A DNA stretch of 64,000 nt from Allomeiothermus silvanus DSM 9946 (lineage in GTDB: Bacteria > Deinococcota > Deinococci > Deinococcales > Thermaceae). Below, one piece after another: positions 2,118 to 17,857 of this stretch. The number at the start of each line of letters is the position of its first letter. The stretch's first letter is position 1. Under the pieces are notes generated by a model. It was not told where the DNA came from, did no database searches, and worked only from the letters and a program-made list of their open reading frames with translations. The DNA is taken from positions 186,001-250,000 of the forward strand of contig NC_014213.1 of NCBI RefSeq assembly GCF_000092125.1, in the 5' to 3' direction. Position numbers and translations under genes: made by a program.

Positions 2118-3191
2118 TCAAGCAGCTTCTCGAAAACCAAAATGCATAAGGTCGTTTCGTAAGTTCCCGAGGTCTTTCCATACGTCAATAAAAGCCTTCC
2201 AGTCATCGGGTATGGGAACATCTCCTTTCATACAGGCATTAAACCAATCTTCCACTTCTTTTCGCTTCTTGTACTGAATAGGCTGCCAACTTCCTTGCCC
2301 CTTCAACTGGGCAAATGACACCATCCACTCCCGCGCCAGGCCCAGCGCCTTCTCGTACTGGCGGTGCTTAAGGAACCAGCTCACCTGTCCAAAACTCTGG
2401 ATTAACTGGACTTGTTGAGATGCCTTATCGTCTTGAGCTATCAGACCCAGACCTTGTTCAAGGCGAGGCAGCAACAGTTTGAGCGGGGCGTGGCTCAGTT
2501 CCCACTCTTCGCCCTTTGCCCGCACGATTTTTGCCAGGGCCTTCGACGAAAGCTTCCCTGCGCGCATGGCCCGGTTGGTCGAGAGGGCTTCCGAAAGCCC
2601 AGTCAGCTCCTTAAGCGCCGAGTTCAGATGCGTATTGAGCGGCCTAGCCCCCCTGGTCTCAACCAGGGGGCGAAACTTGCTGGCGTCACCTGTCTCAAGG
2701 AAGCGGTTCGTGGCACTGGCCCAATCCAGCATGGTCATAAACGGAGTAAGGTCGAAGACCGGCGCGGTGTCGCCGGTTCTCGCCTCATAGGCCCCGTAGA
2801 GCACATACTTTAGTTGTACGGCTTTTGCCGCACGCAAGAAGCTGACCACCAGCAGTGCCAGAGTCGGCAGCGAGCGGAAGCCGTGAGTCACGTCGAACAC
2901 CAACTCGACCCCGGTGGGGATGTGCTGCTCGAGGGTGTTGAAAATTTCCCAGAATTCGGCCTCTTTTTTGCCCGATGGAATGTCAACCAGCTCGGCGCTG
3001 GGCAGGAGCTGCTTAACTGCTTGCTCGTGCTTATCCCTGGACTCTTTGGTCACGCAGATCAGCACATTAGCCTGGGGGAACCACCCGGCTAGAGCGGCTT
3101 GAAAGAACTTACTTGGGTGGGCCTTTTTATCGCCCCAGGTGTAAGCAACCTCCTTGTAGTCGTTAGTGCCCAGCATCGAGAGCAGAATCAC
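2118..3191 (-). CDS. CARF-HEPN CRISPR ribonuclease (TM1812/Csx2-Csx1 group), 3' end cut by IS3
   Basis: The N-terminal CARF-type domain carries the DxTHG signature (DVTHGFRSLP, about residue 100). The C-terminus has an Rx4H motif, RNDLMH (about 345-350), the catalytic signature of HEPN RNases. I chose the GTG at 3189-3191: it has GGAGGA just upstream and overlaps the cmr6 stop as GTGA; a longer ATG start at 3245 would overlap cmr6 by 58 bases. Expected role: RNA cleavage when cyclic oligoadenylate from Cas10 binds the CARF domain. The stop codon (2118-2120) is the first three bases of the IS3 end. Removing the IS and one AGC copy restores 32 more codons ending in an ATGA overlap with the next CARF gene. 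The HEPN motif is still encoded, so activity may survive. Confidence 0.85.
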   Translation of the reverse strand: MILLSMLGTNDYKEVAYTWGDKKAHPSKFFQAALAGWFPQANVLICVTKESRDKHEQAVKQLLPSAELVDIPSGKKEAEFWEIFNTLEQHIPTGVELVFDVTHGFRSLPTLALLVVSFLRAAKAVQLKYVLYGAYEARTGDTAPVFDLTPFMTMLDWASATNRFLETGDASKFRPLVETRGARPLNTHLNSALKELTGLSEALSTNRAMRAGKLSSKALAKIVRAKGEEWELSHAPLKLLLPRLEQGLGLIAQDDKASQQVQLIQSFGQVSWFLKHRQYEKALGLAREWMVSFAQLKGQGSWQPIQYKKRKEVEDWFNACMKGDVPIPDDWKAFIDVWKDLGNLRNDLMHFGFREAA

Positions 3192-4174
3192 GACTCCTCC
3201 AATAAATTCTGGACTTTTTGACAGCGGCTCTTTGTTGTATCCCACCGCTTCATGGCTTCCAGATGAGCCTTAATGGCCTCGAGGCTCGACCTCCTCACGG
3301 CGGGTTCTAAACGCTCGAGCTTAGGGAGATAGTCGTCAATTTTGGATAGTGCGGAGGCATCTTTGACCTGGCTCAGAACTTCTCGAGTTTGCCTTTCGGC
3401 TTCCTCTACGTGCTCCTTTAGCGACTTTGGTCTCTCAGTGACTGTGATCCTGAAGTCACTAAAATACCCATACCCTGCATTGGTCTTGCCCCCCAGCCCC
3501 AGGTGCTCCAGGCCCCACTGAAGCATCTCGGCGGCCTTGTGGGGCCAGTCCTGGGCGTTTTCGGCGGGGCAGGTGATGGGAATATGGAACTTTACCCCCG
3601 GCTTTACCGAGAGAAAGGCCACCGGGTTGGGGTCATCGAAGTCGGTGGGCCAGACTTCTCCGCCCGTGCTGTAGTAATCTGGGTGGTGCACGGTGATGAC
3701 GTCCCTCTGGAAGGGCTGGGCGCTGGCTGGATCCAGCCAGCCATCCCAGTAGACCAGATAAGCGGCGTTCCCCGGCTTCTTTTGCTTGGGGTCGGGGCCT
3801 TCGCCCAGCAGCACAGCCTTTTCTGACTCGCTCAGGCCAAATCGCGCGGCGGCCCGGCGCAAGAGCCCCTTCAGGGCGCTGCCCGGCAGGTAGGGCACGC
3901 CGTAGGTGTGGTGCAGGGTCAGGCCGTTTTCCAGGGGGCTGCTGTTGCCCAGGCCGATGGCCAGGGGGGTGCGGGTGGTGGCCTCGAGGAAGACCGCATC
4001 TTTGAGGGCTGCCTTCCAGCGCTGGAAGGCCCCTGGGTAGGCAGGGCCGATGGGGGTTTGCACGATGGCCTCGAGCAGGCTTTGCTGGTCCTGGGGTTCA
4101 AACCCTTTCAGGCCCTTGTAAAGCGCAAGCCCGGCATGGGAGATGGTCCCCAGCGCGCGCAGACTATTTCTCAT
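3188..4174 (-). CDS. cmr6: Type III-B Cmr6 (Cas7-family RAMP)
   Basis: 328 residues. RAMP features: the Gly-rich LTLHHTYGVPYLPGSALKG region (about 88-106), which is the typical Cmr6 glycine loop, and WPTDFDDPNPVAFLSVKPG (about 185-203). Cmr6 caps the Cas7-like backbone of the Cmr ribonucleoprotein that binds crRNA and cleaves target RNA. The start overlaps the cmr5 end by 11 bases and the stop overlaps the csx start (GTGA), so it is translationally coupled on both sides. The C-terminal 100 residues are charged and helical, slightly longer than usual. Confidence 0.9.
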   Translation of the reverse strand: MRNSLRALGTISHAGLALYKGLKGFEPQDQQSLLEAIVQTPIGPAYPGAFQRWKAALKDAVFLEATTRTPLAIGLGNSSPLENGLTLHHTYGVPYLPGSALKGLLRRAAARFGLSESEKAVLLGEGPDPKQKKPGNAAYLVYWDGWLDPASAQPFQRDVITVHHPDYYSTGGEVWPTDFDDPNPVAFLSVKPGVKFHIPITCPAENAQDWPHKAAEMLQWGLEHLGLGGKTNAGYGYFSDFRITVTERPKSLKEHVEEAERQTREVLSQVKDASALSKIDDYLPKLERLEPAVRRSSLEAIKAHLEAMKRWDTTKSRCQKVQNLLEES

Positions 4175-4553
4175 GGTCTTCCCCCGCTTGCACCTGGAGT
4201 ACGCTTACCGCAAAGCGCTTGAAGTACACCCACGCCTCCAGCACCCGCCGGGTGTGGTGCATGTACACAGGCGTGGGTGCCGACTGCAACGCTTCCAGCA
4301 GCTTGCCCCTAACGCCCAGCATCTCGCCGAGGTGCTCGAGCAAATGCTGGTGCGCCTGGGCCCGCTTACCGTCGCCGCTGGCTTTATCGGCGCTAAAGGC
4401 CACGGCCTGACACAGCCCGCTCTGCAGGACCATCACCGGGAAGCTGTGGCAGAGGCCGCCGTAGATGCGCTTGACCTCGGGGTCGGCCCGCTCGAGGCTG
4501 CTCACCAGCTCCAGCGCCCGCTGCATGTCCTTTTGGCTGCGTGTTTGGGACAT
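4164..4553 (-). CDS. cmr5: Type III-B Cmr5 (Cas11 small subunit)
   Basis: 129 residues, all-helical, with MSQTRSQKDMQRALELVSS at the start and a conserved RIYGGLCHSFPVMVLQSGL segment (about 29-47) typical of Cmr5, plus VYMHHTRRVLEAWVYFKRF near the C-terminus. It forms the inner filament of the Cmr complex along the crRNA-target duplex. Two bases separate it from cmr4 upstream and it overlaps cmr6 by 11 bases. Length is normal for the family. Confidence 0.9.
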   Translation of the reverse strand: MSQTRSQKDMQRALELVSSLERADPEVKRIYGGLCHSFPVMVLQSGLCQAVAFSADKASGDGKRAQAHQHLLEHLGEMLGVRGKLLEALQSAPTPVYMHHTRRVLEAWVYFKRFAVSVLQVQAGEDHEK

Positions 4554-4555
4554 GG

Positions 4556-5344
4556 CTACTCACCCCCCAACCGCCGCAACAGCCCCCGGCCCACACTGGC
4601 CTGTCCGCCTATCTGGACATAGGGCCGGTTGAGTTCCTCGAACCCATCGCCGATGGCGAAGCTCGAGAACACCGTCTCGGCGGGGATGGCCTCCTCGTAC
4701 CACAAAGCGCCGTTGGCTACGATTTTTCTCTCGTTTTCCAAGCGTACCCGGGCGATGACCTCGAGGCCCATCTCGCAAAAGTAAGCGAACACGTCGTTGG
4801 ATACCAATGCAAAGCGCCCCACAAAGTAGTTCGACTCAGCGCCAAAGACCAGTTGCCCTAGTTCCTGCGCCAGCGCTTCTGCGCCTCCGACAGTGGCGCT
4901 CAGGTCTATGTCCTCGAGGATTACCTGGTTAGCATGGACAATTTGAGTGTTCTTGGGCACGAGAGCTTCGGTCTGTCCCGGATTCGGTATCGGAGCTTTT
5001 AGCTCAGGAAGCCCCAAGGCCTTCTGGTCGCGTTTGAGCCGCTCGAGCACCAGCGGGCAGGTCAGGAGAGCAAAGGTGCCCGCATACGAGCGCACCGGCA
5101 GTAACAATAGGCGGGCATCGGTCAGGGTCAGTTCGGCTGCATTTTCTAAGGAGCCGAAAAGCCTATTGCTTTGCTCATCATCGCGCCCATCGCGCAGCAC
5201 CCCCTTAAGGCTGCTGGCCGGTATCACCGGAAAACCCGTGGCCGCTTCGCGGGCTACGGGAAGGTCAATTACGCTGCTACTGTCCTGCCCGGTGCCGGGG
5301 TGCACCGGCGTTAGGGCCTGCCAAAAGATCATCTTTGCGTGCAT
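4556..5344 (-). CDS. cmr4: Type III-B Cmr4 (Cas7-family backbone, target RNA nuclease)
   Basis: About 262 residues. RAMP motifs: LTPVHPGTGQDSS near the N-terminus and FPVIPASSLKGVLRD, the canonical Cmr4 loop bearing the Asp thought to cut target RNA at 6-nt steps. The C-terminus ends in a Gly-rich QIGGQASVGRGLLRR. Start: ATG at 5342-5344, two bases past the cmr3 stop; a GTG at 5348-5350 with a GTGA overlap is an equally plausible start. Multiple copies would make the crRNA-binding filament. Confidence 0.92.
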   Translation of the reverse strand: MHAKMIFWQALTPVHPGTGQDSSSVIDLPVAREAATGFPVIPASSLKGVLRDGRDDEQSNRLFGSLENAAELTLTDARLLLLPVRSYAGTFALLTCPLVLERLKRDQKALGLPELKAPIPNPGQTEALVPKNTQIVHANQVILEDIDLSATVGGAEALAQELGQLVFGAESNYFVGRFALVSNDVFAYFCEMGLEVIARVRLENERKIVANGALWYEEAIPAETVFSSFAIGDGFEELNRPYVQIGGQASVGRGLLRRLGGE

Positions 5345-5346
5345 GT

Positions 5347-6477
5347 TCACCACACTCCCCAAAGGGCCAGTCCAAAACCGTCCTTGCGGTCTTGCTCGAG
5401 GTCGCTAATGGGCCTGAGCCAGCTTTCCAGCAGGTCGGCGGGTTGGCCGTCCATCACCTCGAAGAAGTACACGCTGCCTGCGGGCGCCATCCAGCGCACC
5501 CGCTTGGGCCGGTTTTCCCGCAGGCTCCAGCCGCTCACCGGCTCGCGCCGCCCCACCGCGGCGGCCACCAGCTTGAGTTTCACATTGCAAAGACCTCGAG
5601 GCAGATGAAGCTCGCCGTTGCCCGATTTCTCGATCCAGCCAGGTTTCCAGCCGTGCTCGAACAGGGCTGGCGTAGCCAGCACCAGCCGCACCCGAGCACC
5701 CTTGCCCAGCTCTGCGAAGCGCTTTTTGATAGCCTCCGGGCAATCGAACCAGTAGTCCGAAAGGCTCGGCTTTACCTCCACCGCCACCGGACGGCGCTCG
5801 CCCCCCAGGTGGCCGATGGGGGCCGGGGTCTGCCCGTTGGGCAGCGAGAGCCGCACCCGCAGGCTGGCGGGCTGGTAAGTTTGGGGGTTCTCGCCCATCT
5901 CCAAAGGCCGGTAGGCCACGCTGTATAGCTGGCCTTCCTGGGCCTTGCCCTTGACGGGGTCCATGGCCACGTGCACGCGGGTCTCGGTGGGCAGACCGGC
6001 TATTTTTTGCGGTATAACCCTCTCCCCCAACAGCCAGTCCGTCATACTCTGGGCCGTCCAGAAGTTGTAGCCGGACTCGGGCTTCACGTCTTGGGTAATC
6101 TGCAAGGGCAAAAGGCCTTCCGGCAGGTCACAGCCTGCGCCTTCGGGCGGGCTAAAGGGGCGCAGCTTCATGACCTGGGGCTTCTCGTCTTGCTTGTAAA
6201 TCACCGCGTCGCGCGGGGCGGGCAGTAAAATCCCACCACCCCGAGCCAGCAGCGGCCCGCACACCTGAAGGCCGTGCAGATTTTGCAGGTGTTCCTGGGT
6301 GAACCCCTTGCCCTCGGCCAGCCCCACCTGCGTCCGCACGAAGCCCGCGACGGTGCTCGGCAAGGGCAGACTCAGGCTCCGGGCGGCGGTCTCGGTGCCG
6401 TCGGCGGCGCTAAAGGGCCTGCCGTCGCGGAAAAGCAGGGGGCCTAGGGCGTGTATTTCAAGCACTCTTTCCGGCAT
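5347..6477 (-). CDS. cmr3: Type III-B Cmr3 (Cas5-family)
   Basis: 376 residues. The N-terminal HALGPLLFRDGRPFSA is the classic Cmr3 RAMP strand, followed by LPLPSTVAGFVRTQVG. A Gly-rich LPRGLCNVKLKLVAAAVGRREPVSGW segment and a C-terminal DRKDGFGLALWG complete the family pattern. Cmr3 binds the crRNA 5' handle beside Cmr2. The start overlaps cmr2 by 20 bases and the stop lies just before or within the cmr4 start, consistent with one transcript. Confidence 0.9.
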   Translation of the reverse strand: MPERVLEIHALGPLLFRDGRPFSAADGTETAARSLSLPLPSTVAGFVRTQVGLAEGKGFTQEHLQNLHGLQVCGPLLARGGGILLPAPRDAVIYKQDEKPQVMKLRPFSPPEGAGCDLPEGLLPLQITQDVKPESGYNFWTAQSMTDWLLGERVIPQKIAGLPTETRVHVAMDPVKGKAQEGQLYSVAYRPLEMGENPQTYQPASLRVRLSLPNGQTPAPIGHLGGERRPVAVEVKPSLSDYWFDCPEAIKKRFAELGKGARVRLVLATPALFEHGWKPGWIEKSGNGELHLPRGLCNVKLKLVAAAVGRREPVSGWSLRENRPKRVRWMAPAGSVYFFEVMDGQPADLLESWLRPISDLEQDRKDGFGLALWGVW

Positions 6478-7942
6478 GCTCTTCCTCCCGAATGCCGCTC
6501 AAAAAGCGCGCAATGATGAGCTGATCCACAAAGCGAAGCAGGGCTTTGCGGTACGTGGGGGTGTCGCTGGTGGGTGCTGGAATTCGCAGATCATGGGCCT
6601 CTTTGCGGGCCAGAACCCGCAGGGCTTCCTTATGGAGATAATCGGCCCGCATGTCGTCCTGCCACTCCTGCACCAAGTCCCGGAGTTCGTGCGCGAAGCC
6701 GCGAGTAATCTGGCGATTTTGGTAGGCCTCGAGCAGCTCGTCCCAGGACAGCTCGTTCCAGGGCTGCACCACCGTGACCGGCGAGCCGCCACGGGTGTGC
6801 AGGGCTACGGCGAGTGCATTCCGTCCACCGTTCTTAGCGGCTTTCTCCGCATCCCGCGCATTTTGCAGGGAAACGGAGAGCGGCTCGCGGTAGTGCACAA
6901 TGGCAACCCCCGCCGAAAGGGTGCCCTTGACCCGGTGGCGAAACGCCTCCGAGAGTTCTTTGGCGCAGGCGATGGCTTGGTTCACTGGCAGGAGGGCCAG
7001 CACGTCGTCCCCGCCCGAATAGACCATAAAGCCCCTGTGCTTGGGCACAATTGTGCGGGCTTCCTTGGCGAAGTCATCCAGGGTTTTTGATAGCCCACGG
7101 TGGGCATCGGGGTCGTCCTGGCGGGCAATCAGCTCGCCCATGCGGTCGCCGTCGGCCACCAGAATGGCCAGGTAGGGCTGGGGCTCTGGGATATGGTCGT
7201 CGTCCTCGCCGTAGCGCTCGTCGGGCTCTGCTTCCGGCCTCCAGGAGCGCCGGGCCATGGTGCGGGTATCCACCACTTTGTCCGAGTTCAGCACCCCGTA
7301 ACAGCGCTTGAATAGCGAGATGGCGTCGAGGTGCTCGGTGGGCTTAATACGCAGGGGGCGGTGGGAGCCATCGGCTAGACGGATGCTGGCAGTGGCCCAC
7401 TGTCGAGGATCTATCACCGCTGCCCAGGAGGGGTCGAGGGGAGACTTGGGCACACCGGCGTCGTGTTGCTGGGTGGGGGCAAAATCCCGCAAAGCCTTGC
7501 GTCCGGCCAAGAGGCGCTCCACCTGAAGCCTTGCCTCCTTGTAGGCTTCCTTTTTGGGCAGCGGCGCCCAGGCGGCGTAGAACTCGAGGAAACGCCCAAG
7601 CTGCTCTTGGGCCCTTGCTTGGTCAATCAGGTTTCGCTGCTCGGCAGGGAGCTTGCGAATGGTCTCGTCCCAGAGCCTCAAGAGCCTCTCCTGAACGGCT
7701 TTTTTGGTCTCCACGGCAAGCTGCTTAGGGTCGTCCTTTACCTCGGCCAGAATCTTGTTGGCCCCGTCGGCGTTCGGGTCAGCGGGGAAGATAAGTTGGG
7801 CACCTTTATTGTGCAAAAACTGAGCCGCGTGCTTGCTCAGTTCCTGCAAAATCTGCGAACCCGCGTACAGGTCGGCGGTGCGGCGCGCGGCGGCAATGAA
7901 GTCTTGCACCGGGCCCAGGGAGATGGAGAGCAGGTGGCTCAT
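6458..7942 (-). CDS. cmr2: Type III-B Cas10/Cmr2, cyclase-competent, HD-less
   Basis: 494 residues, much shorter than typical Cmr2 of about 800 or more. The palm domain begins at once (LLSISLGPVQDFIAAARRT) and there is no N-terminal HD nuclease domain. The second palm carries an intact cyclase motif YSGGDDVLALLP (GGDD at about 310-313), preceded by ILVADGDRMGE (about 260-270). It should therefore convert ATP to cyclic oligoadenylates on target RNA binding but lack ssDNase activity. The two CARF proteins downstream are the expected receivers. It overlaps cmr1 by four bases (ATGA). Confidence 0.9.
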   Translation of the reverse strand: MSHLLSISLGPVQDFIAAARRTADLYAGSQILQELSKHAAQFLHNKGAQLIFPADPNADGANKILAEVKDDPKQLAVETKKAVQERLLRLWDETIRKLPAEQRNLIDQARAQEQLGRFLEFYAAWAPLPKKEAYKEARLQVERLLAGRKALRDFAPTQQHDAGVPKSPLDPSWAAVIDPRQWATASIRLADGSHRPLRIKPTEHLDAISLFKRCYGVLNSDKVVDTRTMARRSWRPEAEPDERYGEDDDHIPEPQPYLAILVADGDRMGELIARQDDPDAHRGLSKTLDDFAKEARTIVPKHRGFMVYSGGDDVLALLPVNQAIACAKELSEAFRHRVKGTLSAGVAIVHYREPLSVSLQNARDAEKAAKNGGRNALAVALHTRGGSPVTVVQPWNELSWDELLEAYQNRQITRGFAHELRDLVQEWQDDMRADYLHKEALRVLARKEAHDLRIPAPTSDTPTYRKALLRFVDQLIIARFLSGIREEEHAGKSA

Positions 7943-9165
7943 AGACGCACCTCCACGGTGAAGCCTTGAATGCGGGCAGCTTTGCGCACCGCTTCCAGCG
8001 CGTTGCTGGCCTCGAGCGCCTTCAATACGGGATCGTTGTTGGGAAGATGCAAGGCGAGTTCTTTTCCATTGACCTTGATTTGTGTGGGCGCAGGGGTATT
8101 GAGGAGGATGACCGCAGGCCGCACACTGCCATCGGCAAAGGCCATGGGCTTGAGGATCACCGGCGAGGCCATACGCGCACCCTGGGGGTGCCGGGCCTCG
8201 AGGGTACCGCTAAAGCTGTTTCCCAAGCGCTGATAAACGATGGGCAGGCCCAGGTAGGGCTTGGCCAGGGCGATCTGCTCCTGGTTGGGCCTCAACGCCA
8301 GCAAGGTCTTGTGGTCTTGCCACTTGCCCCCAGCCATGGGGGTGTAGGTCATGGTTTGCCCGGTTTTAAGGTCTTTTACGAAATGCCCCTTGCGGAAGCG
8401 GGCCCAGAAACGGCCTAACTCCCGCCAGGCAACGTGGCCTTTGTAAGGGTCGGTGTTGCTGGGCTTGTGGGGCTGCCCCAGATAGATCACCGCCCCGGCC
8501 AGGATGGTGTGCTGGGGTTCCGCTATAGGTGAAGCCGTAAACCAGTCTTTGAGCTGGTTGGGGCTGGCTGGCAGCCAGTCCGAGACATCGCTCAGCGCCT
8601 CGAGCGCCCCCACCCCCCGCCGGGTGCGCGCCCCTACCCCCCCGAAGGCAATCCAGGCCCGCAGCGCAGTCTTGAGCTGCTCTTTTTCTTCTGGGCTAAG
8701 CCGGGTTACGTCGAGTTCCAGGGTGAACGCCACCCATACCCGCCCGCTGGCCTCGGGCAGGCCCTCGCTTTGGTTGGGGTTGAAGGGATGGAGGAAAAAC
8801 TTCTCCATAGGACCGGTTCGCGCTGTTCCTCTGTCCGGTACCAGGTCTGAAGGTTTTTTGCTTTCTCCGGCAGTTTGCTCGAGCACCCGCAGGGCCACCC
8901 TGCCGTGTTTCGCCGCACTTCCCCAAATCTCCTCCTCCGCCTTGAACAGTTCCTCAGCACTCGTGTACCGCCCCCCCGCCACGGCCCGCCACCAAAAGCG
9001 CAGATGCCCGCGCACGCTGGCGGCCCGAACAGGGTTTTCCGGGTCTACCTCGCGCGGGGTGGCGCTGCCGCCGAACAGGGGGGTGAGGGTCTTGAGCTCG
9101 AGCGTCCAGGTCTCCAAGGTAGCTGTTTTGTGTTCGGGCGGCGGGATGGGGATGGCTCTAGGCAT
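7939..9165 (-). CDS. cmr1: Type III-B Cmr1 (Cas7-family RAMP)
   Basis: 408 residues. [19 protein letters not shown] and [17 protein letters not shown] (about 45-62) form the hallmark Cmr1 N-terminal RAMP region. [15 protein letters not shown] (about 172-186) is the Gly-rich loop. Cmr1 sits at the 3' end of the crRNA in the Cmr complex. Its start lies eight bases inside cas7c, so the type I-C and type III-B modules are physically fused into one overlapping operon. Confidence 0.9.
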
Positions 9166-10141
9166 GGGCTCCCCCTAGCCAGACGTCGAATCGCTCCTCG
9201 TCCCATTGGTTGAGCTCGAGCATCCGCACCCCCTTGGGTAGCTTCTGGGGGTCGGCTTTTACCTCGTAGTCGGCGAAGCGGCGGGGGGGTTTGCTTTCGT
9301 CGAGCCGCCGCACCGAGACCACCTGGCCCAGATCGAGCAGGCGGTGCGCCGGAGCGCAGCCCAGCATGGCCTGGCGCTTGTTCTGCTCGGCGTTGTGGGG
9401 GTCGGTACCCACATGCTGGAAGAGGAAGAGCCTTCGGGTGGCCATCAGGCCTTTGGAGGCGCTGCGGTCGTGGTCGTACATGTTCAACAGGGCCTCTACC
9501 AGAAGTTTCAGGTCGGCCGGGCTGAAGCCGGTGCCCTGGGCCAGGTGGGCGCTGACGAAGCCTTTGGCCAGGTACAGGCCATACGAAACCTGGCTCTTGC
9601 GGCCCATGGTGCGCAACTTGTCCTCGGGCTGAAGAGCCTCCCACTTGAGGTAGTCCTCGAGGGTTTTAGCGTTCTTGACGTCCTCGGCCACCGCGCCGCG
9701 GGTGATGCTGAACTCCGCGGGGAAGATGGGGTCGAGGCTTCGGGCAAAGGTGATCTGCACCGGCCCCCGCACCTGCCCGGCGTTGGCTCCGGTGCTCATC
9801 ACCGCGCCGAAGGTGCGCACATCGTAGAAGTGCGCGCACATCCACCGGCGCGCCGCCTCTACCTTGTCCTTGGTCTTGACTCCGGTAAAGCCGCCGGTTT
9901 TCTCGTGGGCCTCGAAGATGGGGCGGTTGAGGTTGGTGCCGTGCTGGACAAAGATGGGGGCTCCGGCGGCCTGGGCGTAGTTGCGGATGCGCCGCTTGAG
10001 GGCCACGTCGCTCACCAGGCCGTGGCCGTCCTCGGGGTCTACGCGGGGGGCGTTGCCCGAGTCGGGGTCGCCGTTGGGGTTACCGTCTTGCACGTCGAAA
10101 AACAGCAAAAACTCGTAGCGGTTTTGGATGGGCTGGGACAT
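9158..10141 (-). CDS. cas7c: Type I-C Cas7 (Csd2), Cascade backbone
   Basis: 327 residues. Opens with [27 protein letters not shown], the Cas7 signature of types I-B/I-C, followed by [21 protein letters not shown]. It polymerises along the crRNA spacer in Cascade. It follows cas8c after 11 bases and overlaps cmr1. Length is normal for Csd2. Confidence 0.94.
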
Positions 10142-10152
10142 CGGGGGCCTCC

Positions 10153-12018
10153 TTATTCCTGAAACAAACTGGGGGTTGTGGGGGCTTGGGTTTGAGGGGT
10201 TTCCTTCTTGCGGCTTTGGGCCAGTTGCTGGTAGTAGCCCAGGGCAAAAAGGCTTTGTTCTTCCAGGCTCAGGGTGCGGGGAAGGTTAGACCCCAGGGCG
10301 CTCCAAACCTGGGCCAGTTGGGTGTTGAACCAGTAGGCCAGGCCCGGTGCGTCCTTGGCCATCTTGGCCAGGTGGTGCTGCGAGAGCCGGGTCAGGCGGC
10401 CCAGCACCAGCGCAGGGGTGCTGCTGGCCGCGCCGTAGTAGCGCTGGACGACCCCGGCGTTGATCTCGGACTCGCTGGCGGCCTCCTGGATCTGGGCCAG
10501 GAGGCACATCAAGCGGCCGCAGTGGTAGGCCGGGCTGGGGTGCTGGGGGTCTAGGGCAGTGCTCATGCTTTCTCCTTTGCGGATGTGGTAGGCCTTCAAA
10601 AGCCCCATGCGGGCGTAGATGCGCCCCAGGGTGGCGGCATCGGGCTTTTGGGCCTGCAGGGCCTCGGAAAAGGCCCCGGTCATCACCTCGGCGGTGTGGG
10701 ACTCCATAATTTTGGCGATGGCGGCGTAAGGGATGGGCAGCCTGGGGTTCAGGGCGGCCCGCCACAGGGGCACTTGCAGGGTTTTGACGGGCTTGAGGTA
10801 GTCGTCCAGCTTTTGCTCGGGGGACTTGGGCCGCTGGAGGCTCAGGAACAAGCGGTTGAGCCCCGGCAGGCTGGCGCTCTGGTCGCCCGAGCGGCGCACG
10901 ATGGCCAAGTGCTCGAACCAGGTTGTTACGGCCTCCACAAAGTCTTCCAGCCTGCCGATTTGCCAGTCGCGCACCATCACCCGGCCCGAAGCCGGGCTCA
11001 TGGCAGCAGCGAAAAACCGGCTGTTGCGAATCTCCGGGGGGGCCTGGCCGGTTTTGAGGGCTTGCAGCACCCGGTGGGCGCGCTCTAAAGCCTGTAGCTC
11101 CTCGGCCTCGCCGCTGCTGGGGGCGAAGAGGTCGCGGAAGAAGTCGTCTTCCTCGGGAATCTCGCGGTCGTACCAGACCACCACCTTCATCTCGCCCAGG
11201 GTTTGGGCTTTCTCCAAGAGCGCGTCCAGCCCGGCCCGGTAGGCGGTAGCGGCCAGTTCGTCCACGGCGGCGTTCTCGCCCTGCGATAAGCCATAGGACT
11301 CGAAGGCCTCCTTGTCGTAGGTGACCAAAGCGTGGCCAAAGGCGCTCCCGCCCAGCCGGGTGACCTTGGGGTGGGTGGAAGCCGGAGTGACCAGCTCGCC
11401 GCTGGCGAACGAGGGCATCTGGCCCTGCGCGCCCGACCTGGGGAAGGCATGGGCCCTAAACTGCCGCCACCAGTCATGCCAGTCAGGGCAGTCCAGCACG
11501 CACCGGCCGTTCACGAAAAAAGAGATCTTGTCGGTGGATTTGAGCCTTTCTGGCCCTCTTTTCTGGGCTTGGGCCTCCAGCTTCTGCAAGAAAGCCTGCA
11601 CCTGCTGGGGGTCGGAAAGCGCCTGGGCGATGGGCTCGAGGAGCGGTACGTCGTTGGCCGCTAGCTGGATGAGCAGCCGGAAGGCGGCGTGCTTCTGGAG
11701 GTTTTTGGCGTGCTCCTCGGGCCTTCTGATATTGCCTGCGGCGTCCCGCTCGGGCAGGCCAAACACCACCGCGCAGGTGTCGGCCAGGAAGTGGGCGGCC
11801 TGCTCGACGGTGTGACCCTGCGCCCGCAAGTAGCCGGGCAGGCTCATCATGTCGGGCTGGGAGAGGTCGGGGGCGGTTTTGGCTTGGTCCAGCGGTATCA
11901 GCTCGGTCCACTGCCCCGCCGGGCTTACCCCCACCAGCCAGCGTATCTCTTTACTGGTAAAGCCGGGTTCGGTGCCCAGGCCTTTTAGCCGGGCGTAATC
12001 CACCAACTGCGCCAGCAT
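10153..12018 (-). CDS. cas8c: Type I-C Cas8c (Csd1), Cascade large subunit
   Basis: 621 residues. [22 protein letters not shown] at the start and the [41 protein letters not shown] and [20 protein letters not shown] blocks match Csd1. It recognises the PAM and nucleates the R-loop; in I-C systems an internal start in cas8c also makes the Cas11 small subunit, so none need be encoded separately. Start overlaps the cas5c stop by one base. Confidence 0.93.
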
Positions 12019-12764
12019 CAGTTCACCCCCTTCTGGACCCGCTCGCTTTCGTAGGGGGGCACCAGCAGCACCCCTGCCACCACCTCGGCCTCGAACAGGC
12101 TGATGCGGGGCTTCTCGCCTCGGTCAGTGCGCAGCGGGGCCCCCGGTCGCGAGAGGTCGAAGACGTCGTAGAGCATCCAGCCGATCTTCTCGGTGTAGTC
12201 CACAGGCCGGGCCTCCTCGCCGGGCTCGACCAGCCGGAAGTAACCGGTAAACTCGCGGCAGCCCAGGTAGGGCTGGTAGAGGCACTGCCCGGCCCGGGCC
12301 CGCCGTTCAAAGCTGTGCTCGATTTTCTGGCGTAAAGCGTGGTCTTCCCGGTAGAGCACCGCGTGGGCGCGCAGGCGGTAGCGCACGTTTTTGAGGGCCA
12401 TGGTCTGGCGCTGGGTGCGGCCCTTGGTGTCTTGGCCGGTGTCATCTTTGGTGGCGTCGGCGTAAAGGGGCTCGAGGTGGCTGGGGTCTCGCATCCAGGC
12501 CTGGATGTTGCGCAGGGTGGCTTTTTCCTTGACCTCGTTGCGCATCAGACTGATGTAGCGCACCGGGCACAGCACCTCGATGCGGCTGATTTGCCAGTAC
12601 ATGAGGGACTTTTTGCTCTGGGGGTCGAAGTCAAGGTAGATGGCGTCGAAGATGCCCCGTGCCGCGCTGGGGGTAATGAGGGGGTAGCTGAAGCGCTCCA
12701 CCTTGAACTCAGGCCTGGTAAAACAGGCCAGCTCCCCCCACACCTCGAGCACAAAACTTCGCAT
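12018..12764 (-). CDS. cas5c: Type I-C Cas5 (Cas5d), pre-crRNA endonuclease
   Basis: 248 residues. The N-terminal [25 protein letters not shown] and [15 protein letters not shown] motifs define Cas5d, which in type I-C replaces Cas6 as the repeat-cleaving endoribonuclease and then caps the crRNA 5' handle. A strong AAAGGAGG precedes the ATG. A 49-base gap separates it from cas3. With no cas6 in view it may supply crRNA for both the I-C and the III-B complexes; that is inference. Confidence 0.93.
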
Positions 12765-12813
12765 ACAACCTCCTTTGGAAAAAAAATAGCCTTTTGCTCT
12801 TGCACCCTGTTGT

Positions 12814-15800
12814 TCAAATAACCAAGCTCCCCGGCCCGCCCTCGGCAGGGGTGAAGCCCAGCAAAGCGTGGTAGCAGGCCGGGTCGGGGGACAAAAACCA
12901 GTCGGGCACCTCGCTATTTTGGCGACCGTAGCGCAGAAAGACCGGCTCGAGGAAGGCCGGCGGCCCCCCGTGGGGCAAGAAGAAGGGCACCGTGTAGGGC
13001 CGCGCCCGGTGCAGCCAGTCGGCGGCGATGCCGTGCTCGCGGGCTTCTTGCATGAGGGCCAGGGCCTCTTCGTTGTAAGGCACCACCACGTTCACTGCCG
13101 GGGTTTCAATTATGCGGTAGCGGCGGGCCAGTTCGGCGTAGTTTTGGGTTTTGATATGCCCTTCGATCTCGGGGTCGCTCACCTGTTGGATCCCGTAAAG
13201 GCTTTGGTAGTAGCGGCGGAAGGTGGCGGGGGTGAGCTCGAGGCCCCCCTCGGCCTGCAAGGCTAGGGTGAGCTTTGCGGCCTGGGCGTAGGCCCGGTCG
13301 GGGTAGCCCTCGTCCTCCGGCAAAAAGACCACCAGACGTCCTTCCCAACGCAGGCCATGCCGGTTGACCCGTCCGGCAGTCTGGGCGATGGCCTCCAAAG
13401 GCCCCAAAGCCCGGTAGCCTATGGGAAAGTCCAGTTCTACCCCGGCCTCCACCACCTGGGTGGCGATCAGACGACAAGGTTCTCGCCGGTCCAGGCGGGC
13501 TTTAATCTCTCTCAGCACCTCCTTGCGGTGGGCCGGGCACAGCGCGGTGGATAGATGATAAAGCCCCTCTAAGCCCCGCTCCTGGGCCTGCTGAAAGAGG
13601 GCCTGGGCCTGCCGCTTGAGGTTGAGCACCACCAGGGCCTGGCTATCGGCAGCCAGCAGGGTCGTCAGAGCCGGGTTGGGGGTGGGGTTTTTGAGCCACC
13701 ATTCCACCGCTACCCGCTGGCTCTGGCCAAAGAGCGCTGCCGGGTTGGGCACAATCTCCCGCGGCTGCCAGCCCTGCGGTTCGTTTTCCTGGACTTTGGC
13801 GTGCAGGGTATCGAAGGCGGGCTGGGTGGCAGTGGCGAAGACCACCACCGAGCCGTACCTGTCGCTGGCCAGGTGCGCGAGGGTTTTGAGGGTGGGCACG
13901 GCCAGGGGGGTGGGCAGGGTTTGTACCTCGTCAAACAGCAGCACGCTCCCGGCCAGGTTGTGCAGCTTGCGGCAGGCGCCGGGGCGGCTCGCGTGCAGGC
14001 TCTCCAGCAGTTGCACGTGGGTGGTGAGGATGATGGGGGCTTCCCAGTTCTCGCTCAGGAGGCGGCGCTCCCGTTCCAGGATGTCCTGCTCGTCGGAAAG
14101 CTCCTTGCGCAACGGGCGGTAGGCCAGGCTGTGGTCTTCCAGGATGTAGTGGGAACCAAAATCGGCGAAGAGTTCGCGGTAGATCTGCACGGTCTGGTCG
14201 AGGATGGACAGGTAGGGCAGCACCACCACGATGCGCCGTATGCGCGGGTCTTGCGCAGCCCGCTTCAGGGCAAAGCGCAGCATGGCCAGGGTTTTGCCGC
14301 TGCCGGTGGGGGCGGTGAGGGTAAAGAGGCGGCCCTCTAAGGCGGCCTCGGCGCAAGCCTGGGCCACCGTCTGCCGCAGGGCGCGGATTTGGGGGGGAAT
14401 GCCGGGGTCGGCGGCGAGCTGGGCTAGCCGGGCCTCGAGCCGCTCCAAGGCTTCCCGAGCCTGCAAAGGCGGGGGCTCAGGGCGGCGGACTTCGGGGCCT
14501 CGCATATGCTGCTCGGTGTCCAGAAAGTCGGCGTCGACTAGAGCCGAGAAAAGCATGCGGGTCTCGAGCATGGCCGCGGCGCTTTGGGGCAGCCTTATCG
14601 GGGCCTGGCTGGGTGGGGGTAACTCGAGTCCATCGGATTGCATGCGCGATTTGAGCACCTCCAGGCGGGTCTCGCTCAGGCGCAGCTCGGGCGGGAAGCC
14701 TTGGCCATCCTCGCGGAGCCGCATCGCCATGAGGTTTTCTTTGGCCCCGCTCTGGAGGCCGATGTGGTGGCCCTGAATGGCCAAGGCCAGCGCGGGGGCG
14801 CGGTACTCGAACAAGGCCAGATGCGCCCCCGCCGACCAGTGGTCGAGGCCTTTTTCCTTGCCCTCCAGGCGGCGCTGAAAAAGGTCGCCGTATTTGCCCA
14901 GGTCGTGCAGCTTCCCCGCTAGGTCGGCCTGCTCCGAATCACCAAAGGGCTGGGCTTTTTCGGCGGCCAGGCGGGCTACCTGGGCGGCGTGTTCCTGCAG
15001 GGTTTGCCAGCGGGTGGGGTCTTTGTGGGTGTGGGCCCAGTAGGTTTTGGGGCCCGCCACCCTCTGCGGGTCGTACCTTTCGAGCAGCTGGTGGGCCTCG
15101 GCCAACCAGACCTGCCGGAGGCCCTCGGGCTCCAGCACCTCCACCCTCGGTCCCCAGCTTTGCACCCACGAGAGCAGCTCGATGGGGAAACCGTCCTCGT
15201 CGGCTCCGACCGCGACCTCCACCACCAGGCTGCCGTCGTCACCCTCCTCCAACTCCTGGAGGTTGGGGTAGCCTCCCTCCCGAATGCGCGGGACGGCTTG
15301 CGGCGAAAAGCGCAGCCGCACCCGGACCGGGTCTCCCCTACCCCCCACGATGCCCCAGGCGTCAGAGAGGTACTCCCGAGGATCGAAGCTGGCCGGGATC
15401 TCGTAGGCCTCGGTGGGACCGACCAAGGTGACGAACTGCATCCGGGCGAGTTTGAAGGTGCGCAGTTGGCCTTTATAGCTGCGCTCGCGGCCGATGACGT
15501 ACACCGCCATGTTGGCCCGCGAGACCTCGATGAAGTAGGTTTCCAGCTCGAATTTGGTCAACTCGCGCCGCCCGGGGAGCTGGTAGTGAAACTGGACGAG
15601 CTGGCGGCGGAACCAGGCGTTGGTGATCTTCTCCAGGTTGCTTCCCTCGAGGCCGGGTCCACGGGCAGCCATGGCCTCGACGCTCTTTTGCGCTACGCTA
15701 CGAGCGGGCTCGGGCAGGCCCCGGGCTAGCTTGAGCAGGGCTTCCTGGTACTGCTGGTTGTGCCCCGGCGAGTGGTAGTAGAGCATCCGCAAAGCGGTAT

Positions 15801-16068
15801 GGATCACCACCTTCTCGATATCGCTGAGCACCACCCCGGCATTCAGGCTGTAAGTGCGGCGGATCTCATCGTGGATGAGCCGAAACCCCAGATGAGAGCC
15901 TAGTTCCTGGAGGTCTTGCAGGTAATAAAGCACCGCCCGCTTTTTTATCCCGAGCGCCTGTGCTAGCTGCTGGGCTGTCCAGGGCTTGAGCTTCAGTAAC
16001 TCCAGAAGCCGAATTAGACGCAGGGCTTTCTCGTGGGTAGCCTTCAGCGAAGGGTCGTGGGGCTCCAT
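12814..16068 (-). CDS. cas3: WYL transcription factor fused to Cas3 (HTH-WYL-WCX-HD-helicase)
   Basis: A single uninterrupted 1084-residue frame. Residues 14-60 form a DeoR-type HTH (TAQQLAQALGIKKRAVLYYL). Residues about 150-225 are a WYL domain (AVYVIGRERSYKGQLRTFK). Residues about 247-330 are its WCX extension (LLSWVQSWGPRVEVLEP). Cas3 begins at about 340: HDLGK (388-392) with DHWSAGAH and GHHIGL for the HD nuclease, APTGSGKT (586-593), LFDEVQ (711-716), ATATQP (745-750), TQVVEAGVELDF and QTAGRVNRHG for the SF2 helicase. Each half is full length and all catalytic motifs are present. No credible internal start lies at the junction: the only nearby GTG, at about residue 337, has no spaced ribosome binding site. 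It heads the operon, so it may autoregulate the genes it works with. Confidence 0.93.
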   Translation of the reverse strand: MEPHDPSLKATHEKALRLIRLLELLKLKPWTAQQLAQALGIKKRAVLYYLQDLQELGSHLGFRLIHDEIRRTYSLNAGVVLSDIEKVVIHTALRMLYYHSPGHNQQYQEALLKLARGLPEPARSVAQKSVEAMAARGPGLEGSNLEKITNAWFRRQLVQFHYQLPGRRELTKFELETYFIEVSRANMAVYVIGRERSYKGQLRTFKLARMQFVTLVGPTEAYEIPASFDPREYLSDAWGIVGGRGDPVRVRLRFSPQAVPRIREGGYPNLQELEEGDDGSLVVEVAVGADEDGFPIELLSWVQSWGPRVEVLEPEGLRQVWLAEAHQLLERYDPQRVAGPKTYWAHTHKDPTRWQTLQEHAAQVARLAAEKAQPFGDSEQADLAGKLHDLGKYGDLFQRRLEGKEKGLDHWSAGAHLALFEYRAPALALAIQGHHIGLQSGAKENLMAMRLREDGQGFPPELRLSETRLEVLKSRMQSDGLELPPPSQAPIRLPQSAAAMLETRMLFSALVDADFLDTEQHMRGPEVRRPEPPPLQAREALERLEARLAQLAADPGIPPQIRALRQTVAQACAEAALEGRLFTLTAPTGSGKTLAMLRFALKRAAQDPRIRRIVVVLPYLSILDQTVQIYRELFADFGSHYILEDHSLAYRPLRKELSDEQDILERERRLLSENWEAPIILTTHVQLLESLHASRPGACRKLHNLAGSVLLFDEVQTLPTPLAVPTLKTLAHLASDRYGSVVVFATATQPAFDTLHAKVQENEPQGWQPREIVPNPAALFGQSQRVAVEWWLKNPTPNPALTTLLAADSQALVVLNLKRQAQALFQQAQERGLEGLYHLSTALCPAHRKEVLREIKARLDRREPCRLIATQVVEAGVELDFPIGYRALGPLEAIAQTAGRVNRHGLRWEGRLVVFLPEDEGYPDRAYAQAAKLTLALQAEGGLELTPATFRRYYQSLYGIQQVSDPEIEGHIKTQNYAELARRYRIIETPAVNVVVPYNEEALALMQEAREHGIAADWLHRARPYTVPFFLPHGGPPAFLEPVFLRYGRQNSEVPDWFLSPDPACYHALLGFTPAEGGPGSLVI

Positions 16069-16246
16069 AGGTACGCAGTTCTATCCATACCAGGGGCGAT
16101 CCAGCAGCCGTCCAATTAAGTGTGGGTGCCTATGTATGCTCAATTAACTTGACTGATATCCCCCTGTCGCCCCGCGGTGGCGCTGCGTAGCCCGCAGGGC
16201 CAGGGCGTCTTTGGGCGAGAACCGGGGCATCCGGAGGTCATGTTCC
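16069..16246 (-). promoter_or_regulatory. Probable promoter and operator region of the cas operon
   Basis: The 178-bp gap ahead of cas3 is more AT-rich than its surroundings. It holds two direct copies of CAATTAA at 16113-16119 and 16141-16147, 28 bp apart (each followed by G/C then T), a plausible site for a dimeric regulator such as the WYL domain encoded just downstream. TTGAGC on the complement (16138-16143) could be a -35 element, but no good -10 follows. cas3 has no clear ribosome binding site. I found no CRISPR-like repeat here. Confidence 0.35.
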
Positions 16247-17857
16247 CTACACGACCCACAGCGCCAACCCCCGTCGTTCCTGAATCCAATTGGAGTAATG
16301 ACCGACCATGAATTCTTCATCGCACGAGGAAGGCTGATCGCGGTAGATCCATTCCGCAGCGGGGTCGAGTTGGTAGATGCCGTGGCTGATCCGCAGGCTA
16401 TTTTTCCATCCCAAGGCCTGGCGGAGCTTTTCCGCGTTGGCCCAGAGGGCCTTGCGGCTGCGGGATAGATGCGCGCTAGAAGCGCCGTAAAGCTGATCGA
16501 GCAGGTGTTCGACGCTGGCGCTTTTGCCGTTCTCGAGCAAGAACACCAACAACTCCCCCGGCTTGCCGGTCGGGCTGATGGGCACTGGCCTACCGTTTAC
16601 CCGGACCTCGAGTGAGCCGTAGGGATTGACTTCAACGCAGTGCCTGGGCTGGGGTTGGGCGTTAGCGAGCGAGAGGTAGCCCTTGAGTTGGGGGAAACAG
16701 TGGACCTCCTCCTGTACCCAGAGGTTGGCGGGATCTAGGGTGGACAGGAGCTTTCGGGCCTCTTCCAGCACTCCTTGTTGCTGGTGTAAAGCGGCTTGTA
16801 CTACAGCCCGTACGATCTGACCCCGCTCGCGCAGCCGGGTGGCCCGGCTCAGGGATTCCTGGGCTCCTGCCCTATCCCCCAGCATCAGCCGTGCCGCGGC
16901 GATATCGGCATTTAGCCAACTCACCTCGGGTGCAAGGTCGAGGGCGAGGGCCCGTAGCAAATAGGCCAAGGCTTCTTCGACCCGGCCCAGCAGCCGCAAG
17001 GTATGCGCGTATCCCCACCAGGCTTCCTGCTGGTCGTCGCGCTCGCACGCGGCTCGGGTAGCTTGTTGGTAGCAGCTTAGGGCCCGGTCCCACTCCCGCA
17101 ATGAGCGGCGCACCGCACCCAGGCCGCACAGGGCTCTAGCCTGGAATTCTCGTGCCACAGCTTTGCGGCTAAGCCGAGCAGCCTCGAGGAGGTGTTGTTC
17201 GGCTTCTTCCGGGCGGTCCTTGAGGAGGGAGATCCCCAAGCTGTGCCGCGCCCAGGCCAAGTAGTAGGGATCCTCTTCCAGGTAGGCTAAAGCCTCCGCC
17301 CACGTTACCCGGGCTGCTGAGCGCTGGCCCGAGAGATACAGCAAGCCCCCTTCGTCCACCAGGCTGCGGCCCAAAGCCGCCCCGCTGAGGTAGCCCCTGG
17401 CGCGGCGAAAGGCCTCTTGCCAACCTTCTCGGCCCAAGCGGAAAAGCACCTCTGCCCTAGTCCGCCAGTACACCCCCGGATCGGCTAGGGTGGGGTCTTG
17501 GATCGCCTCGAGCCGCTGGTAGGCCTCTTCGTACCGCCCCTCGCGGAGCAGGGCCCAGGCTCGGTAGGTCTCGAGCCCCGGCGCAAGGGGCGGGGCCAGC
17601 GTATCGAGGTAGGCTAGCAGCAACCCCGGCTTCCGAGAACGGCATAGCGCCAGGGCGTATAGCTGCTGGAGCGAAGGCTCCTGACAGAGCCAGGATGGCG
17701 GGAGCAGGGCGAATAAGCTCACCACCCGATCCGCGTCCTGGTGGGTTGGGGCCTGGTGAAGCAAGGTCTCGAGCAAGCCCGCAGCTACGGATATGCGCCG
17801 GGCCTCTACCAGAGCGGCAAGGCTAATCTGGGCGTCTTCAAGGGCTATTTTCCCCAC
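16247..17857 (-). CDS. TPR-repeat transcriptional regulator with C-terminal winged helix
   Basis: 536 residues. About 1-390 is a tandem helical TPR-like array (for example RYEEAYQRLEAI, REWDRALSCYQQATRA, GRVEEALAYLLRALALD). Residues about 405-500 form an OmpR/SARP-like DNA-binding fold: a strand region (YGSLEVRVNGRPVPIS), the helix pair LLVFLLENGKSASVEHLLDQLYG, a recognition helix SRSRKALWANAEKLRQAL and a hairpin SLRISHGIYQLD. In SARP-type activators the winged helix is N-terminal; here it is C-terminal. The start is uncertain: GTG at 17855-17857 lacks a clear ribosome binding site. It lies on the same strand as, and upstream of, the cas operon, so a role in its control is possible but unproven. 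Confidence 0.7.
   Translation of the reverse strand: MGKIALEDAQISLAALVEARRISVAAGLLETLLHQAPTHQDADRVVSLFALLPPSWLCQEPSLQQLYALALCRSRKPGLLLAYLDTLAPPLAPGLETYRAWALLREGRYEEAYQRLEAIQDPTLADPGVYWRTRAEVLFRLGREGWQEAFRRARGYLSGAALGRSLVDEGGLLYLSGQRSAARVTWAEALAYLEEDPYYLAWARHSLGISLLKDRPEEAEQHLLEAARLSRKAVAREFQARALCGLGAVRRSLREWDRALSCYQQATRAACERDDQQEAWWGYAHTLRLLGRVEEALAYLLRALALDLAPEVSWLNADIAAARLMLGDRAGAQESLSRATRLRERGQIVRAVVQAALHQQQGVLEEARKLLSTLDPANLWVQEEVHCFPQLKGYLSLANAQPQPRHCVEVNPYGSLEVRVNGRPVPISPTGKPGELLVFLLENGKSASVEHLLDQLYGASSAHLSRSRKALWANAEKLRQALGWKNSLRISHGIYQLDPAAEWIYRDQPSSCDEEFMVGHYSNWIQERRGLALWVV

Follow-up and report, generated by a model that had tools for sequence, protein, structure and literature searches.

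A WYL regulator fused to type I-C Cas3 in Allomeiothermus silvanus and its relatives evolves as a module separate from the nuclease-helicase

Analysis of a 64,000-nucleotide stretch of the Allomeiothermus silvanus DSM 9946 genome (NCBI RefSeq assembly GCF_000092125.1, contig NC_014213.1, positions 186,001 to 250,000; hereafter the window, in whose numbering positions are given) identified a minus-strand gene at 12814–16068 in which an HTH-WYL-WCX transcription regulator (the head) is fused to a complete type I-C Cas3 nuclease-helicase (the body). Within this one polypeptide, the head co-evolves with the regulator gene encoded upstream and the Cas3 body with the cas genes encoded downstream. 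The fusion itself is already recorded and is not new: Makarova et al. 2014 (PMC4012209) mention that certain type I systems have a WYL domain joined to Cas3, as found here in a single polypeptide, and that record probably covers proteins of the present group. This contradicts the view of a first-pass annotation of the window that WYL proteins occur near CRISPR loci only as separate genes. The statement in PMC4012209 takes up one sentence of the main text, which names neither a locus nor a mechanism and does not treat the promoter, a partner regulator or the evolution of the fusion, and no later paper studying a WYL-Cas3 fusion was found in the open-access literature. As far as checked, the exchange of modules, the activator box common to these loci, the TPR-containing partner and the WCX-only derivatives reported below are undescribed.

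The frame is uninterrupted from an ATG at 16068 to the stop codon and encodes 1084 amino acids. Pfam and NCBIfam limits place the regulator half at about residues 1–331 and the Cas3 half at about 342–1084, close to the division first proposed from the open frame (about 1–335 and 340–1084), and each expected domain was matched. The head consists of an HTH DNA-binding domain (residues 17–57, 15898–16020; HTH_11, E 4e-5, just under the cut-off of that family), with helices modeled by AlphaFold at residues 32–39 and 43–60, followed by a WYL domain (residues 144–214, 15427–15639; Pfam, E 3e-8) and a WCX domain (residues 247–329, 15082–15330; Pfam, E 8e-14). A linker (residues 330–342, 15043–15081) leads into the Cas3 HD nuclease domain (residues 357–518, 14515–15000; TIGR01596, E 8e-18) and the helicase core (residues 582–915, 13324–14325; TIGR01587, E 2e-31), both above their cut-offs, and the HD, Walker A, DE-V-Q, TATQP and motif VI signatures of the body are all intact. 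The AlphaFold model of the full protein has a mean predicted local distance difference test score (pLDDT) of 84.5 and a predicted template modeling score of 0.67, with low confidence at the ends and in short stretches that include residues 235–244, between WYL and WCX, and 333–337, between WCX and Cas3. When compared with PDB structures, the modeled body resembles the type I-C Cas3 structures 8zns and 8g9u, and the modeled head resembles DriD bound to single-stranded DNA (ssDNA) and DNA (8tp8) and PafBC on RNA polymerase (9fnd). Across the fused relatives there is no conserved internal start at the junction (GTG at residue 337 here, ATG at 338 in two species, missing in others) and no conserved ribosome site beside these codons, so that an additional stand-alone Cas3 made from an internal start is not supported by the sequences. 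Together these results establish the gene as a real fusion of an HTH-WYL-WCX regulator and a complete type I-C Cas3.

A survey of 61 relatives, and then of 111 genomes of the phylum, recovered the full-length open fusion in 16 genomes, all belonging to Meiothermus, Calidithermus or Allomeiothermus, three genera of one family. These carriers are hot-spring bacteria. The 15 fused relatives besides the window have open frames of 1084–1132 amino acids; an assembly or frameshift artefact is ruled out by the open frame in 16 independent genomes, and homologues are not always split. In a scan of 84,980 species genomes with the WYL module, the carriers of the fusion were Calidithermus, Meiothermus and a Thermaceae metagenome-assembled genome (MAG), with Thermus and Chloroflexi members encoded as separate genes that in Thermus and several Chloroflexi lie directly before a type I-E cas3. 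At four distant I-C loci (L055, L057, L058 and L059) the WYL stop codon overlaps the cas3 start codon as ATGA, and separate WYL and cas3 genes on a Deinococcus radiophilus plasmid share the same overlap. Because separate genes overlap in this way elsewhere, the fused gene replaces what is otherwise a translationally coupled pair. No plasmid sequence gave a megablast match to the fused gene. T. thermophilus HC11 was considered as a possible WCX-Cas3 carrier, since its match begins at residue 224, and was set aside because the annotated gene begins at Cas3.

The head is under strong purifying selection. The ratio of nonsynonymous to synonymous substitution (dN/dS) between close pairs is 0.05–0.19 for the HTH and 0.02–0.23 for WYL, comparable to or below that of the Cas3 parts. 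In four genomes, WCX alone precedes Cas3. These Cas3s fall in two places of the tree, one with genome G025 and the other beside G013, and HTH-WYL has therefore been lost at least twice with WCX kept; in these forms WCX has a dN/dS of 0.24–0.48 and is constrained, but more loosely. A second locus in G013 (contig 2) holds a stand-alone WCX gene with an in-frame stop, a decaying remnant. In one Thermus genome (G012, locus L053), a Meiothermus-type Cas3 nested inside the fused clade lacks the head, the promoter box and the TPR regulator described below, as expected after transfer into Thermus. A passive read-through fusion that serves nothing beyond its two halves and is heading to decay might draw on the two losses and the G013 remnant, but it is very improbable given the strong purifying selection that intact fusions show on both HTH and WYL, their preservation in 16 genomes, and the retention by both head types of the promoter and, mostly, of the partner gene.

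In order to compare the histories of the two halves, identities and trees were considered for each. Calidithermus chliarophilus (G006) has a head about 84% identical to that of the window but a Cas3 only 37% identical; conversely, G031 and G027 have Cas3s 85–90% identical and heads only 54% identical. DNA identity to G006 falls at residues 301–316, at the end of WCX, and identity to G031 climbs over residues 301–346, which places the recombination seam at the end of WCX. A quick tree joins the heads of the fused proteins, without exception, in a single clade (SH-aLRT 99), whereas the fused Cas3 bodies do not form one (approximately unbiased test, p 3e-76; 508 log-likelihood units), and the G006 body groups with Cas3s that have separate WYL genes. 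Distances for the head correlate with those for the upstream TPR regulator at 0.75 and with those for Cas3 at 0.38, while Cas3 correlates with Cas5, Cas8 and Cas7 at 0.93–0.97; without G006 the corresponding values are 0.72, 0.56 and 0.71–0.88.

The promoter region of the fused gene carries a box of two direct repeats spaced at 11 bp and a −10-like hexamer (TGGACG-N5-TGGATC-N8-TATGGA, 16084–16114, minus strand), which ends about 15 nt before the start codon and departs at two points from the strict form of the consensus derived from upstream alignments, T(R)GAYG-N5-T(R)GAYG-N8/9-TAnnnT. Across 24 genomes (about 74 Mb), the strict box has 17 matches, of which 15 immediately precede a WYL, WYL-cas3 or WCX-cas3 gene; the reversed pattern used as a control has none. 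The two other strict matches, at G013:C1:730545 and G033:C230:7866, were inspected and not linked to CRISPR; the former (G013:C1:730545–730575, L173) is followed after about 20 nt by a Wzz-like chain-length gene and is either a chance match or a non-CRISPR target. When scored with a weight matrix (leave-one-out for the eight loci used to construct it), the box was the best upstream site in all 16 fused loci, all 4 WCX-only loci and all 12 WYL genes of type I-E loci in these genera, a score matched by at most 1 of 100 shuffles. With the same matrix it was not found at six I-E WYL loci that lack the TPR gene, five of them in Thermus and one in a Thermaceae MAG, at the headless Thermus cas3 or at five distant loci. 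The second base of the two repeats co-varies more than expected (22 of 30, p 0.003, a generous value for related sequences), and some type I-E boxes (L079, L066, L104 and L102) have TCGAYG rather than TGGAYG in one or both repeats, which suggests altered specificity of the reader. A consensus −35 element was not found at the box promoters. In the window's own genome (L068, G000:C1, 5081–6244), an IS4-like transposase lies directly upstream of a type I-E cas3, at the position that a TPR regulator and a WYL gene occupy in relatives, and the box was not found at this locus.

The gene directly upstream of the fusion (16247–17857, minus strand) encodes a TPR regulator of 536 amino acids whose C-terminal part is an OmpR/SARP-type winged helix. 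AlphaFold models the protein at a pLDDT of 92.6 and its winged helix at residues 407–505, with the order strand-strand-helix-helix-helix-strand-strand and a pLDDT of about 90; Trans_reg_C matches 8 of 23 members, at best with 3e-4. Among the genera that carry the box, 21 of 22 genomes have the regulator, and 28 other genomes of the family all lack it. Promoters activated by SARPs contain 11-bp repeats with the 3′ repeat 8 bp from the −10 element (PMC10936776), and the spacing of the repeats here, at 11 bp and 8–9 bp from the −10, makes the box-to-cas promoter a SARP activator pattern as judged from sequence. Like the SARP AfsR (PMC10936776), the system pairs such repeats with an OmpR-type winged helix and TPRs; unlike AfsR, the winged helix lies C-terminal to the TPRs, not at the N terminus followed by a BTA domain, and the target is a cas operon. 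The TPR protein is likely the reader of the box, judging from their co-occurrence within related genera, and it would bind the repeats. Its gene is usually single-copy while the box stands before two cas operons, so that the protein would work in trans.

By sequence, the nearest solved relatives of the head are DriD (8tp8, E 2e-15; 7tzv, the DriD C-domain with ssDNA) and PafBC, and the alignment to DriD spans HTH, WYL and WCX; in it R203, K206 and R209 line up with the R..R..R of that protein, and Y190 with the WYL tyrosine. Both DriD and PafBC are activated by ssDNA bound at WYL (PMC12340889, PMC11804915). The head shares with them, DriD in Caulobacter and PafBC in mycobacteria, the order of HTH, helical linker, WYL and WCX, but they are stand-alone regulators of DNA damage responses, whereas the present head is attached to the nuclease-helicase expected to produce its ligand. 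HTH-WYL-WCX regulators such as BrxR and CapW (PMC9122601, PMC9122588) likewise lie beside phage-defence operons, but as separate proteins. That the head works as a regulator, as initially assumed, is favored both by this homology to ssDNA-sensing activators and by the selection on HTH and WYL.

Cas3 exposes ssDNA during unwinding and cutting. As the closest characterized relatives of the head sense ssDNA and Cas3 makes it, the head may sense ssDNA at its source and act on transcription. In the explanation that we favor, an ATGA-coupled WYL gene would have come into frame with cas3, and the head would remain a transcription factor that acts with the TPR winged-helix protein at a SARP-type activator promoter; its signal would most likely be the ssDNA that Cas3 exposes by unwinding and cutting a target, and a Cas3 engaged in this act would thereby raise expression of both effector complexes of the operon. 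Taken as a whole, a working DriD/PafBC-class activator on a I-C Cas3, with an ssDNA signal and feedback to both effectors, has in our judgment about an even chance of being right. Its most specific form, in which the ssDNA made by Cas3 binds WYL of the same polypeptide and, with the TPR activator at the boxes, raises the I-C/III-B operon and possibly the I-E operon, is put forward tentatively. The feedback on operon expression raised by the first-pass annotation is in this sense plausible, and would now involve an activator-type box, a TPR partner and a likely ssDNA ligand.

Several observations weigh against this explanation. The link between TPR regulator and box is partly confounded with genus, and distant loci with the TPR gene gave no match to this box sequence. 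Binding of ssDNA by the head is judged from homology, and K206 stands in place of one DriD arginine. The CRISPR WYL regulator sll7009 (type I-D), as quoted in PMC4012209, is a repressor, so that the present head may activate or repress. The two independent losses show that the head is dispensable in some species, and the box persists at the four loci with a WCX-only Cas3; the head is therefore not needed for the box, and at these loci the TPR protein, or an intact WYL gene supplied in trans, must be enough. Together, box persistence and the losses suggest that the role of the head is to modulate expression, not to enable it.

The explanation that survives best beside the ssDNA-activated feedback is an ordinary autoregulator, whose head answers to the level of free protein or to a small nucleotide, so that joining it to Cas3 only sets stoichiometry and the activity of Cas3 goes unsensed. 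The existence of unfused, ATGA-overlapping WYL and cas3 genes and the independent evolution of head and body are consistent with it; the ssDNA response of the closest characterized relatives, ssDNA being a Cas3 product, and the retention of the fusion in 16 genomes argue the other way, and we consider it possible but clearly less probable than the feedback. A further alternative, also raised at first pass, is that an unliganded WYL/WCX blocks the HD-helicase or its docking to Cascade until a ligand frees Cas3. WCX does stay on Cas3, under some constraint, in both losses of HTH-WYL, and PMC4012209 proposes direct effector regulation as the less common role. However, direct gating is less favored because the head exchanges freely among Cas3 bodies, including one as different as that of G006, and has been deleted at least twice with Cas3 intact; in addition, head distances correlate better with the TPR regulator than with Cas3, a headless Cas3 persists in the Thermus genome, and the low-confidence linker is presumably flexible. 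We regard gating as unlikely.

Returning to the locus, the fused gene is the first of a single-strand operon of mostly overlapping genes (cas3-cas5c-cas8c-cas7c-cmr1-cmr2-cmr3-cmr4-cmr5-cmr6-TM1812; 2118–16068, minus strand), a compound of a type I-C effector and then a full type III-B effector. The I-C part continues with Cas5c (12018–12764, TIGR01876), Cas8c/Csd1 (10153–12018, TIGR01863) and Cas7c/Csd2 (9158–10141, TIGR02589). The III-B part comprises Cmr1 (7939–9165, TIGR01894), Cmr2/Cas10 (6458–7942, TIGR02577), Cmr3 (5347–6477, PF09700), Cmr4 (4556–5362, TIGR02580), Cmr5 (4164–4553, PF09701) and Cmr6 (3188–4174, TIGR01898), and the last gene encodes a TM1812-family CRISPR-associated protein with a DxTHG motif (2118–3245, TIGR02221). 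The Cas3 body, like the type I-C Cas3s of 8g9u and 8zns, is an HD-helicase with all motifs encoded beside cas5c-cas8c-cas7c, and as a member of this class it would degrade DNA in a Cascade-dependent manner; unlike them, it has about 340 added N-terminal residues and an operon that runs on into a complete III-B set. This order, led by WYL-cas3, is kept in most fused relatives. No CRISPR array was found in the first 25 kb of the window.

Two further loci of the same genome encode WYL proteins. In a further cas operon on the same contig (L065, G000:C2:318000–337900, 4110–7878), a helicase with an HD-like region at its C terminus is directly preceded by a separate, distant WYL protein that shares 24% identity with the head. 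At L067 (G000:C2, 5197–6201), a WYL protein encoded on its own, with 36% identity to the head, adjoins a gene of unknown function and a transposase, and has relatives in G001, G009 and G021.

How CRISPR activity rises only during target destruction is largely an open question. If the self-reporting form of the proposed mechanism is true, it would provide positive feedback from target destruction to CRISPR transcription. The fusion is a natural construct in which a WYL activator of the ssDNA-sensing class sits on an ssDNA-making enzyme, with a defined box and a partner activator. Head-swapped and head-deleted versions occur naturally, and relatives provide separate-gene controls, so that culturable Meiothermus and Calidithermus species allow a direct test of whether interference feeds back on cas expression.
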